Source: Polaromonas sp. (GTDB lineage Bacteria > Pseudomonadota > Gammaproteobacteria > Burkholderiales > Burkholderiaceae_C). Taken from it: DNA of 34,199 nucleotides. The translations under genes and the position numbers were made by a program. Positions 25,471-30,031 of this stretch are shown one piece after another. Position 1 is the stretch's first letter, and the number at the start of each line of letters is the position of its first letter. The stretch covers positions 1 through 34,199 of the forward strand of contig JAUSDK010000104.1 in the NCBI GenBank assembly GCA_030650875.1, read 5' to 3'. The notes under the pieces are model-generated. The model worked only from the letters and a program-made list of their open reading frames with translations, did no database searches and was not told the origin of the DNA.

Positions 25471-25578
25471 TAGCGTCGGCCTTTTTAATTATTCACCCCG
25501 TCAACTGACGAATCTATTGCCTGCCGAGCCTGCGCATTACCGTGCGAAGGGGAGGGCAGCGAAAAGAGGAATCTTCTT

Positions 25579-26161: not shown

Positions 26162-27187
<1,026 letters not shown>

Positions 27188-27218
27188 TTTCGGTTCTAAT
27201 CAGGTTTTGTCCTGCAAG

Positions 27219-27247
27219 AAGCCGCGCAAGGATCTTGTGCGGCTTTT
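27219..27247 (+). terminator. Intrinsic terminator of ilvC
   Basis: AAGCCGCGCAAG pairs with CTTGTGCGGCTT (12 pairs including one G-U) around GAT, followed by a run of T. It lies 32 bases after the ilvC stop codon. Confidence 0.88.
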
Positions 27248-27361
27248 TCAATGGCGGATGCAAACTGGTATGGGGCGGGCCTGGATTTTGCGGGCTGCAG
27301 CCCTCAAAGAATGTTTTTCCGCGCCATCAGGGATTTTGTCGGTGGTTCACGATTGAAGTTT

Positions 27362-27378
27362 GCTATCAATCCAATGGC
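27362..27378. repeat. Near-match of the GCTAT-N7-ATAGC motif upstream of pssA
   Basis: GCTATCAATCCAATGGC differs from the motif by one base in the right arm and is followed by TATTTGCGCGC, like the TGCTTGCGC flank of other copies. It lies 38 bases before the pssA start, where the promoter or 5' leader is expected. Confidence 0.5.
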
Positions 27379-27415
27379 TATTTGCGCGCAACAGTCGTGC
27401 TTCAGGAGTGTTTTT

Positions 27416-28228
27416 ATGCATGATGGCGAGGAGTCCGTTCAGATGGCCGAAGGGGGTGTGGCGCGCAAGCGTCGCAAGGGTATCTACATACTGCCTAATT
27501 TATTTACGTTGGCAGCCTTGTTCGGCGGCTTTTATGCGATCGTCATGGCCATGAACGGGCGGTTTGATCAGGCCGCCATCGGTGTGTTTGCAGCCATGGT
27601 GCTTGATAGCCTGGATGGACGGATCGCCCGCATGACCAATACCCAGAGTGCGTTTGGTGAGCAGATGGACTCGCTGTCGGATATGGTGTCGTTCGGTGCA
27701 GCGCCTGCACTGATTGCGTACATCTGGGCGCTAACCAGTCTGGGTCGCTGGGGCTGGCTCGGTGCGTTTGTTTATTGCGCCTGCGCTGCGCTGCGACTGG
27801 CTCGCTTTAATGTCAATACGGCCGTGGTGGATAAACGTTTTTTCCAGGGGCTGCCTTCCCCGGCCGCAGCAGCATTGGTGGCAGGCTTTGTCTGGTTGAT
27901 GACGGATGCCGGCATCAGCGGGCAGGATGTTCGCTGGCAAACGTTTGGACTGATGTTGTTTGCTGGCCTGACGATGGTGACCAATCTCCCGTTTTACAGC
28001 TTCAAGGATGTGCAGATGAAGCGCAGTGTGCCCTTCGTGGTCATTGTCCTGATTGCGATCGGAATCGCCGTGATCAACATTGATCCCCCGACCGTGATGT
28101 TCGCCTTGTTTGTGCTCTACGGTTTGTCCGGTTATGTGGTTTATGGCTGGCGTAAAGCCAAAGGCCTGCAGACCAGCGTCATTTCAACCTCAACGCATGA
28201 GCCTGATGAGCGCGGCTTGCATGAATAA
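27416..28228 (+). CDS. pssA: CDP-diacylglycerol-serine O-phosphatidyltransferase
   Basis: A 270-residue multi-pass membrane enzyme of the CDP-alcohol phosphatidyltransferase family that makes phosphatidylserine, precursor of phosphatidylethanolamine. The signature D-x2-D-G-x2-A-R-x8-G-x3-D-x3-D is complete: Asp64, Asp67, Gly68, Ala71, Arg72, Gly81, Asp85 and Asp89. About six to eight hydrophobic helices follow. The frame is open back to 27251, but ATG 27416 is preceded by CAGGAG at ideal spacing and gives the usual length, so the longer form is rejected. The psd gene, which I expect between ilvC and pssA in many Burkholderiales, is absent here. The leuA leader begins only 19 bases after the stop. 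Confidence 0.94.
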   Translation: MHDGEESVQMAEGGVARKRRKGIYILPNLFTLAALFGGFYAIVMAMNGRFDQAAIGVFAAMVLDSLDGRIARMTNTQSAFGEQMDSLSDMVSFGAAPALIAYIWALTSLGRWGWLGAFVYCACAALRLARFNVNTAVVDKRFFQGLPSPAAAALVAGFVWLMTDAGISGQDVRWQTFGLMLFAGLTMVTNLPFYSFKDVQMKRSVPFVVIVLIAIGIAVINIDPPTVMFALFVLYGLSGYVVYGWRKAKGLQTSVISTSTHEPDERGLHE

Positions 28229-28247
28229 ATTGTGGTAGATTCGCGTA

Positions 28248-28301
28248 ATGAAAAGAATTTCGCTAGCACTACTGCTATCTGCCAACGGGCGGAGACGGTA
28301 G
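28248..28301 (+). CDS. leuL: leuA leader peptide (attenuator, leucine-rich)
   Basis: A 17-codon frame MKRISLALLLSANGRRR, ending TAG 28299-28301. Four leucine codons lie within five positions (28263-28277), three of them CTA, which is rare in this GC-rich DNA. This is what a leucyl-tRNA sensor needs. The codons after the Leu run (28284-28290, AACGGGC) duplicate the 3' arm of the following terminator, so they can pair with its 5' arm as antiterminator. No strong Shine-Dalgarno is visible; TAGATT at 28236-28241 with TG one base upstream could be an extended -10, which would start the transcript almost at the ATG. Confidence 0.85.
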   Translation: MKRISLALLLSANGRRR

Positions 28302-28357
28302 CGTACGCGTAAACCTGATTCAACGGCCCGTTTGCACCAGCAACGGGCCGTTTTTTT
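28284..28357 (+). promoter_or_regulatory. leuA transcription attenuator (antiterminator plus terminator)
   Basis: Terminator: AACGGCCCGTT (28322-28332) and AACGGGCCGTT (28342-28352) form a perfect 11-bp stem with a nine-base loop and T to 28357. Antiterminator: AACGGGC at 28284-28290, inside the leader codons, is complementary to 28326-28332. A ribosome stalled at the first Leu codons leaves 28284-28290 free to pair and disrupt the terminator. A ribosome reaching the stop codon covers it and termination follows. leuA starts 135 bases downstream. Confidence 0.88.
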
Positions 28358-28492
28358 GTGTTGCTGGTTTTATGAAGATATAAAAACTGATCAACTTGAA
28401 GCAAGTTGTCAGCGTAAAGCCAATCGCACAACCGATTTGCCGACGACGTTGTCGCTTGAGGCATCAAGTCAAAAACCGAAGGAAAATGTGCC

Positions 28493-30031
28493 ATGACTGA
28501 AAAACTCATTATTTTTGACACCACCTTGCGCGATGGCGAGCAGTCTCCCGGCGCTTCCATGACCCGCGATGAAAAGCTGCGCATTGCCCGCCAGCTTGAA
28601 CGGCTGAAGGTGGATGTGATTGAGGCCGGTTTTGCCGCGAGTTCCAATGGTGATTTTGAGTGCGTCAAGGCCATTGCTGAAGTCGTCAAGGACGTCACTA
28701 TCTGCTCCCTCGCTCGTGCCAATGACCGCGATATTTCCCGCGCAGCGGAAGCCCTGAAGCCGGCCAATTCCGGGCGCCTTCATCTGTTTTTGGCGACCAG
28801 TGCCTTGCACATGGAGAAGAAATTGCGCATGACACCCGACCAGGTGTTTGAGCAAGCAAAACTTTCGGTGCGCTTTGCCCGCAACCTCATGGGCGATATC
28901 GAGTTCAGCCCTGAGGATGGTTACCGTTCTGATCCGGACTTTTTGTGCCGTGTGATTGAAGCGGTGATTGCTGAAGGCGCCACGACCATCAATGTACCGG
29001 ACACCGTCGGATACGCGATTCCCGAACTTTACGGCAATTTCATCAAGAACTTGCGCGAGCGCATTCCCAATAGCGACAAAGCCATCTGGTCCGTGCATTG
29101 CCATAACGACCTCGGCATGGCGGTTGCCAACTCACTGGCGGGCGTCAAGATTGGCGGCGCACGTCAGGTGGAGTGCACTATCAACGGTTTGGGCGAACGT
29201 GCCGGCAACTGCTCGCTTGAAGAAGTGGTCATGGCCGTCAAGACGCGCAAGGATTACTTCGGCCTTGAGGTGGGCATCGACACCAGGCACATTCTTGCGA
29301 CCAGCCGCATGGTGAGCCAGACCACCGGCTTTGTAGTGCAGCCCAACAAGGCCGTGGTGGGCGCTAACGCCTTTGCCCATGCTTCCGGTATCCACCAGGA
29401 TGGCGTGCTCAAGGCACGCGACACCTACGAGATCATGCGGGCCGAAGACGTGGGTTGGACCGCCAACAAGATCGTGCTGGGGAAATTGAGTGGCCGCAAC
29501 GCGTTCAAGCAACGTTTGCAGGAGCTTGGCGTCGCGATGGAAAGCGAAGCGGACATCAACAATGCCTTCGCGCGGTTCAAGGACCTGGCAGACCGCAAGA
29601 GTGAAATCTTTGACGAGGATATCCTCGCTTTGGTGAGTGATGAAAGCGTTGCCCAGGACAATGAACAGTTCGGGTTTGTATCCTTGTTCCAGCACAGCGA
29701 AACTGGCGAGCGTCCCCATGCACGCGTCGTGTTCACGGTGGAGGGCAAGGAAATCACCAGCGAATCAGATGGCAATGGCCCGGTTGATGCCTCGCTCAAA
29801 GCGATCGAATCGCATGTCAAGAGCGGCGCAGAGATGGTGCTCTATTCTGTGAACGCCATCAGCGGGTCGACTGAAAGCCAGGGAGAAGTGACGGTGCGCC
29901 TGCAAAACAGCGGTCGGGTCGTGAACGGTGTGGGTGCCGACCCAGACATTGTGGTGGCGTCTGCCAAGGCCTATTTGAGTGCCTTGAATAAACTCCAAAG
30001 TAAAGCTGACCGCGTGGCCGCTCAGGGCTGA
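28493..30031 (+). CDS. leuA: 2-isopropylmalate synthase
   Basis: A 512-residue enzyme that condenses 2-ketoisovalerate with acetyl-CoA, the committed step of leucine synthesis. The N-terminal TIM barrel shows [14 protein letters not shown] (metal Asp14) and VHCHNDLG (metal His202, His204). [16 protein letters not shown] follows, and the C-terminal 130 residues form the leucine-binding LeuA dimer domain. AAGGAAAA before ATG 28493 supports the start. Expression is predicted to be controlled by leucyl-tRNA through the upstream attenuator, in addition to feedback inhibition of the enzyme. leuB, leuC and leuD are not in the window. Confidence 0.96.

Follow-up and report, generated by a model that had tools for sequence, protein, structure and literature searches.

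Between pssA and leuA of Polaromonas sp., we found an element that is very probably a leucine-responsive attenuator of leuA transcription, one that works through the translating ribosome on an mRNA with a leaderless start. This reading is built on the anatomy of the element, its conservation among relatives, and its computed folding, from which we infer the transcription start, the translation of the leader, and the response to leucine. The kind of attenuator is known; new, as judged by the literature searched, are the conserved leaderless betaproteobacterial form without an Rfam match and a second leaderless leader class. Leader-peptide attenuation in response to leucine is textbook knowledge; a putatively leaderless version conserved across a proteobacterial family would be a natural system for studying how attenuation keeps ribosome and RNA polymerase in step when translation starts on a bare 5' AUG. 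An annotation rule is also gained for a leader that Rfam does not match.

Anatomy of the element

The window, that is, the whole stretch of 34,199 nucleotides analyzed here, comes from a genome of 3.23 Mb and carries ilvB (23686), ilvH (25579), ilvC (26168), pssA, the leader, and leuA in this order. The features of the element and its flanking genes are as follows.

27416 to 28228, + strand: pssA, CDP-diacylglycerol--serine O-phosphatidyltransferase, the gene upstream of the element (TIGR00473, above the NCBIfam cut-off)
28233 to 28241, + strand: extended -10, TGGTAGATT, 6 bases before the leader ATG (sequence)
28248 to 28301, + strand: leader peptide ORF, MKRISLALLLSANGRRR and stop, 17 codons from ATG (28248) to TAG (28301), without a Shine-Dalgarno, predicted leaderless
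28261 to 28309, + strand: leader hairpin (regions 1:2), CUACUG/CGGUAG plus UCUGCC/GGCGGA (MFE fold; alignment counts)
28263 to 28277, + strand: control codons CTA GCA CTA CTG CTA, four Leu (sequence)
28284 to 28290, + strand: antiterminator half (region 2), AACGGGC, a copy of the terminator 3' arm within codons 13 to 15
28322 to 28352, + strand: terminator hairpin (regions 3:4), perfect 11-bp stem (sequence; compensatory pairs)
28326 to 28332, + strand: antiterminator partner (region 3), GCCCGTT, part of the terminator 5' arm
28351 to 28357, + strand: terminator T-run, its first two T's being also the last two stem bases (sequence)
28493 to 30031, + strand: leuA, 2-isopropylmalate synthase, the regulated gene in the proposed model (TIGR00973 and NF002087, above cut-off)

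The 17-codon leader of the first-pass annotation, with four Leu in five positions and three of them CTA, is borne out by the sequence (codons 6, 8, and 10 are CTA and codon 9 is CTG), as is its position 19 bases after pssA, whose stop lies at 28226 to 28228. The perfect 11-bp terminator described there is likewise present, with arms at 28322 to 28332 and 28342 to 28352 and a loop of 9 bases. Codons 13 to 15 (AACGGGCGG), said to repeat the terminator 3' arm (AACGGGCCG), are identical to it at 8 of 9 bases, and the 7 bases common to both, AACGGGC, are complementary to GCCCGTT in the 5' arm. Together, the stretch holds what is expected of an attenuator: a short ORF with a run of Leu codons upstream of the leucine-synthesis gene leuA, an intrinsic terminator between the two, seen in sequence and covariation, and, by computation, a competing structure that precludes the terminator and becomes available when a ribosome stalls.

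We searched both strands of the window for an ATG and 12 to 30 codons that include four or more Leu in a stretch of five, followed by a hairpin and T-run within 110 bases. This gave one hit, this element, and 0 hits in 100 dinucleotide shuffles. The region 28240 to 28420 folds with a z score of -3.77 against shuffles. A simple terminator scan, which allowed loops of 3 to 8 bases, did not list the hairpin at 28322 to 28352 with its loop of 9.

A second possible hairpin, with one mismatch, lies at 28336 to 28368. One side is ACCAGCAACGGG, made up of the terminator loop and 3' arm, the other is TGTGTTGCTGGT directly downstream, and T's follow; this hairpin is present in L010, too, and could be a backup terminator. 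Farther upstream, the Rfam ilvH RNA (RF02993, 90.5 bits) is found at 25507 to 25574, between ilvB and ilvH, and one look at short ORFs upstream of ilvB made out no leader rich in Leu, Ile, or Val.

Conservation upstream of leuA

LeuA searches yielded 110 loci with leuA (30 plus the best 80 of 589 from named genome contigs), 104 of them with distinct leuA. A regular expression for the element (extended -10, 4 to 11 nt, ATG, an ORF of 12 to 40 aa with at least two Leu, and a GCCC/GGGC-type terminator) matches 86 of the 104, and L007 was counted as having it, being on the same contig as L036, where the element is present. Among the 17 other loci, four (L032, L034, L078, and L108) have less than 300 nt of upstream sequence. 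For the remaining 13, a covariance model (R1) built from our alignment A1 was run on the genomes and placed the element before leuA or a preceding long LeuA in nine at E values of at most 4.8e-7 (L017, L018, L024, L027, L028, L104, L105, L110, and L113); leader and downstream synthase motif were seen in eight of these, and L017 was placed by coordinates and a separate look. Of the rest, L111 has a weak match in the correct place (E 0.057), the L074 genome has the element on another contig (L200) upstream of a long LeuA, and L009 (contig edge) and L069 have no element by R1. Thus, 96/104 distinct loci, or 96/100 with enough sequence, have the element ahead of leuA or of a long-type paralogue of leuA.

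In 16 of the 86 loci, the leader is more than 400 nt away from leuA, and a long-LeuA motif lies in between in all 16. The intervening gene of L036 (L036:273-1970), directly downstream of the leader, is a 2-isopropylmalate synthase (PRK03739, 866 bits, cut-off 455), and this match led us to drop a cimA-like identity for it. Long- and short-type 2-isopropylmalate synthase genes stand in tandem behind one leader in L036, with at least 15 similar loci. In L200, the leader precedes a long LeuA, and its upstream neighbor is not pssA but a gene that we take, from reading its translation, to be glutathione-transferase-like. The element tracks leucine synthesis, not pssA.

These patterns bear on a simpler explanation, namely that the hairpin merely terminates the pssA transcript, that the short ORF is incidental, and that leuA has its own promoter downstream. 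Such a role would suit the start of the hairpin 93 nt past the pssA stop, a usual end-of-operon place, and the 135 nt between T-run and leuA in the window. However, promoter and Leu ORF precede the hairpin in the 96 of 104 loci, and the element also stands before long LeuA, once without pssA upstream. Moreover, the T-run is at most 60 nt from the leuA start in 46 of 63 loci (a number that includes a few duplicate contigs), so that a leuA promoter of its own would hardly fit there, although this argument fails for the window itself with its 135 nt. A consensus promoter scan of 27000 to 28700 found no promoter, but it missed the extended -10 at 28233 to 28241 as well. We consider a mere pssA terminator very improbable.

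Run independently of any ORF on 399 genomes of the order, which we take to be the former Betaproteobacteria, R1 gave 28 matches in 27 genomes. The 15 best (L115-L129) have both ORF and -10, and of the other 13, all weak (E of 0.002 or more), 12 showed nothing and one was an unrelated match. At E values of at most 3.0e-4, R1 matches 11 of 12 same-family genomes and, in another family (f10), four genomes that belong to one genus; in 12 more genomes, the matches are all weak.

Leader codons and reading frame

CTA makes up 201 of the 371 Leu codons in 82 distinct leaders and 11 of the 3078 in the leuA genes of the same loci, a comparison in which both leaders and genes are kin, so that Fisher values on codon counts overstate independence. 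All 82 leaders have at least one CTA and 79 have at least two. The first-pass annotation was right to call CTA rare but not to call its use unusual, since CUA control codons are a known design, that of the Salmonella leu leader (PMC1183508). GGG, the codon that carries antiterminator bases, is similarly enriched, accounting for 78 of 94 leader Gly codons vs 300 of 3086 in leuA. It is found in 71/71 aligned leaders (GGGC in 69) and in 85/86 of the wider set (GGGC in 82/86); L112, outside A1, has a leader without GGG.

The stop codon is TAG in 71 of 82 leaders, and we considered whether CTA is kept merely for pairing with it. Those columns are indeed kept, yet the last control codon, outside the pair, is also mostly CTA (A in 54 of 71), so pairing alone is insufficient for the CTA preference. 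In the 71 sequences, 15 or 18 nt separate the Leu codon in A1 columns 57-59 from GGG, and the stop ends 8 or 11 nt past GGGC. Indels within the A1 leader ORF come exclusively in multiples of 3, unlike those in the flanking gaps; this is supportive rather than decisive because an ORF was required in selection. CTA, GGG, and frame would have been lost from a chance ORF, which speaks further against an incidental ORF before a pssA terminator; the codon bias and the empty shuffles led us to reject a chance ORF.

Predicted leaderless start

For the promoter analysis, leaders were chosen by ORF and terminator alone, on the correct strand, giving 82 from the 104 distinct loci. The motif TGnTAnnnT ends 5 to 10 nt before the ATG in 80 of them and exactly 6 or 7 nt before it in 73; across the 60 nt before all 82 ATGs, there is just one further match. 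The two exceptions are L113 and L015, and in L015 the scan picked an earlier ATG, the later one having the -10. None of the 82 leaders has AGGA, GGAG, or GAGG at positions -20 to -4, compared with 72 of 82 leuA starts. A set of 72 leaders gives likewise 70/72 with the -10, 64 with 6 to 7 nt, 0 with a leader Shine-Dalgarno, and 63 with one before leuA. No -35 signal was seen at -30, within the positions -30 to -1 covered.

Nothing upstream of the ATG is better conserved than the extended -10. The suggestion of the first-pass annotation of a possible extended -10 and a leaderless mRNA is upheld, as is its remark that a Shine-Dalgarno is lacking. A transcription start can be predicted from the usual distance between -10 and start, and by that spacing transcription is predicted to begin at the A of the leader ATG or a base off. 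With a -10 directly before the start codon and no Shine-Dalgarno, translation of the leader would be leaderless. Alternatively, the same switch could operate with the leader translated from a longer transcript, for example by read-through from pssA; with pssA ending 19 nt before the leader on the same strand, some transcripts may extend into it. The absence of Shine-Dalgarno 4-mers from leaders whose own leuA genes mostly have them, and the placement of the -10 at 6 or 7 nt from the ATG in 73/82, argue against this, and we regard it as unlikely.

Terminator, leader hairpin, and antiterminator

Alignment A1 holds 71 of 76 distinct sequences, made without the 16 minus-strand loci; L058, L091, and L101 are out for length, and L112 and L114 were left out. 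The terminator has 94.0% paired cells, and its pairs 138-167 and 139-166 vary on both sides (AU:36/CG:34 and GC:59/AU:12). RNAalifold on A1 gave the terminator and three weak pairs around the leader end only; leader hairpin and antiterminator were therefore tested as named structures.

The leader hairpin has 78.6% paired cells vs 31.9 to 50.6% when slid, with 92.4% in the helix of control codons and stop codon and 65.6% in the inner helix UCUGCC/GGCGGA, one pair of which forms in 13 of 71. Its covariation score is 0.191 vs 0.166 in shuffles, and the 7 pairs changed on both sides in A1 are not above the shuffle mean of 7.2. Directly after the leader stop, CGCACGCG (A1 columns 101-109; window 28302 to 28309) is well conserved; part of it closes the leader hairpin, and a small hairpin is possible inside the antiterminator.

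The antiterminator has 88.5% paired cells vs at most 50.1% when slid, its second pair missing in 12 of 71. In A1, its covariation score equals that of shuffles, with no compensatory support, because its core hardly varies, and this invariance is partly due to selection, which demanded a GCCC...GGGC-type terminator. That unshared terminator pairs covary and the shared core does not is as a two-way switch predicts, the core being also in the selection pattern. Thus, the comparison of pssA-leuA gaps proposed by the first-pass annotation showed conservation of the leader, its Leu/CTA codons, the arm copy, the promoter spacing, and compensatory terminator pairs, but not the covariation expected of the second pairing.

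Folding of the switch and proposed mechanism

To follow the switch, the window RNA was folded as far as the 3' arm's first base, and bases covered by a ribosome were kept unpaired. The antiterminator probability is 0.25 without a ribosome, 0.96 and 0.97 with codon 6 or 8 in the A site, 0.45 with codon 9, and 0 with codon 10 or at the stop; hence, only early stalls would antiterminate. Among the 71 relatives, with the ribosome stalled at the columns 57-59 Leu codon (window codon 8), it is above 0.5 in 68 and stays below in three; it exceeds 0.5 in 21 without a ribosome and in none with the ribosome at the stop, the last by construction. The ribosome-stalling geometry proposed from the sequence is thus supported by computation. 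At full length, the terminator (-17.5 kcal/mol vs -14.7 for the antiterminator) is the favored structure in all the states that were folded; the switch must therefore be kinetic, acting during transcription.

In the mechanism we propose, RNA polymerase would start at or next to the A of the leader ATG, as its promoter spacing suggests, and a ribosome would bind the 5'-terminal AUG and translate the leader. With ample charged leucyl-tRNA, the ribosome would reach UAG and cover AACGGGC, letting the terminator form and stopping transcription before leuA. When the charged tRNA for CUA is scarce, the ribosome would stall at the first CUA codons, its body opening the leader hairpin and freeing AACGGGC, which could pair with GCCCGTT before the 3' arm is made, allowing transcription into leuA. 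If no ribosome loads, the leader hairpin would hide AACGGGC and the terminator would win.

Relation to known attenuators

The leu attenuator of Salmonella and Escherichia coli (RF00512) likewise has a Leu-rich leader with CUA control codons and an antiterminator/terminator switch upstream of leuA, and in Salmonella, changes of CUA to CUG lower sensitivity (Carter 1986, as cited in PMC1183508). The E. coli leader has 28 aa (PMC6123439), whereas the one described here is leaderless by prediction and mostly 16 to 18 codons long. RF00512 Leu_leader has no match in the window at gathering score, nor up to E 1 in 18 loci, five with this element and 13 with the second class described below, and we rejected membership in that Rfam family.

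Other systems share single traits. Streptomyces lividans has short leaderless Leu leader peptides, LeuL1 (leuA) and LeuL2 (leuS), LeuL2 being followed by an intrinsic terminator (PMC8079986); it differs in phylum, in sequence, and in that its leuA leader has no intrinsic terminator. The actinobacterial LEU element of leuA is a predicted pseudoknot (PMC1262725). Campylobacter jejuni LeuL, which precedes leuABCD, is likewise a Leu leader containing rare Leu codons, but it has 28 aa and was found by requiring a ribosome binding site (PMC3847290). The Sinorhizobium meliloti trpL attenuator resembles ours in that its RNA starts at the leader ATG (PMC7298713) and differs in responding to tryptophan and belonging to an alphaproteobacterium. 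By analogy with S. meliloti rnTrpL/peTrpL, the attenuated short RNA or the peptide might have an additional role in trans; this leaderless attenuator RNA of similar make, documented in PMC7298713, is a precedent, yet control in cis suffices for the conserved features, and we think such a role improbable.

Putative leader peptides of branched-chain amino acid genes across Gram-negatives are credited to Vitreschak 2004 in PMC6123439. We recognized no report of the leaderless betaproteobacterial leuA leader, its extent, or the second class in the literature searched, in part by listing, a scope outside which Vitreschak 2004, the likeliest prior report, falls.

A second leader class in the order

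The window form is found in one family and one genus of another. In leuA upstream regions sampled from 20 other families, one per family, we made out a different Leu leader in 13 and none in seven. A terminator-like hairpin is found in the leuA upstream regions of three other families (L143, L152, and L161) in which no Leu leader was made out. The 13 second-class leaders have 22 to 37 aa, a -10 directly before the chosen ATG, and CTGCGC plus GCGC near the end. The conserved CTGCTGCTGCGC..GCGC end of the class occurs in L163-L192, L206-L209, and L211, and first came to notice in L145-L160.

A sequence-only model of the second-class 3' end built from these 13 (R2) matches 244 of 399 genomes of the order at E values of at most 0.01. 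Places were checked for the 30 best, eight of which are the model's own sequences, and weaker matches may be chance, nine of them in the family of the window. Each of the 30 has a LeuA-type gene downstream; in 28, its motif starts 108 to 168 nt past the leader stop, and in L181 and L185 a long-LeuA motif follows. In 24 of the 30, the leader ends in LLLR[PLRV][AGR]R. TAnnnT ends 5 to 9 nt before the first in-frame ATG in 27/30, including all 24 leaders with a single candidate ATG, and a Shine-Dalgarno-like 4-mer occurs in 1/30. CTG is the dominant Leu codon (147/221), so rare codons are no part of this class.

Over 35 loci, the 20 nt after the second-class stop are 48% C and 5% G, and none has a perfect 7-bp hairpin plus T-run within 100 nt of the stop; L160 (same locus as L185) has an imperfect hairpin and then T's. 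Lacking a clear intrinsic terminator, the second class would have to work another way, and our guess is Rho-dependent termination gated by the leader ribosome.

The two classes share their place, a leaderless start, and Leu content, which suggests a common origin. From this, one may picture a leaderless Leu leader controlling leuA order-wide, with the second class widespread and the window form derived, having gained CTA codons and an intrinsic terminator, a swap of termination mode on one sensor; to our minds, the chances for and against this joint scenario are even. If true, the same sensor would be joined to different termination modes. In f10, five loci from three other genera have the second class upstream of leuA.
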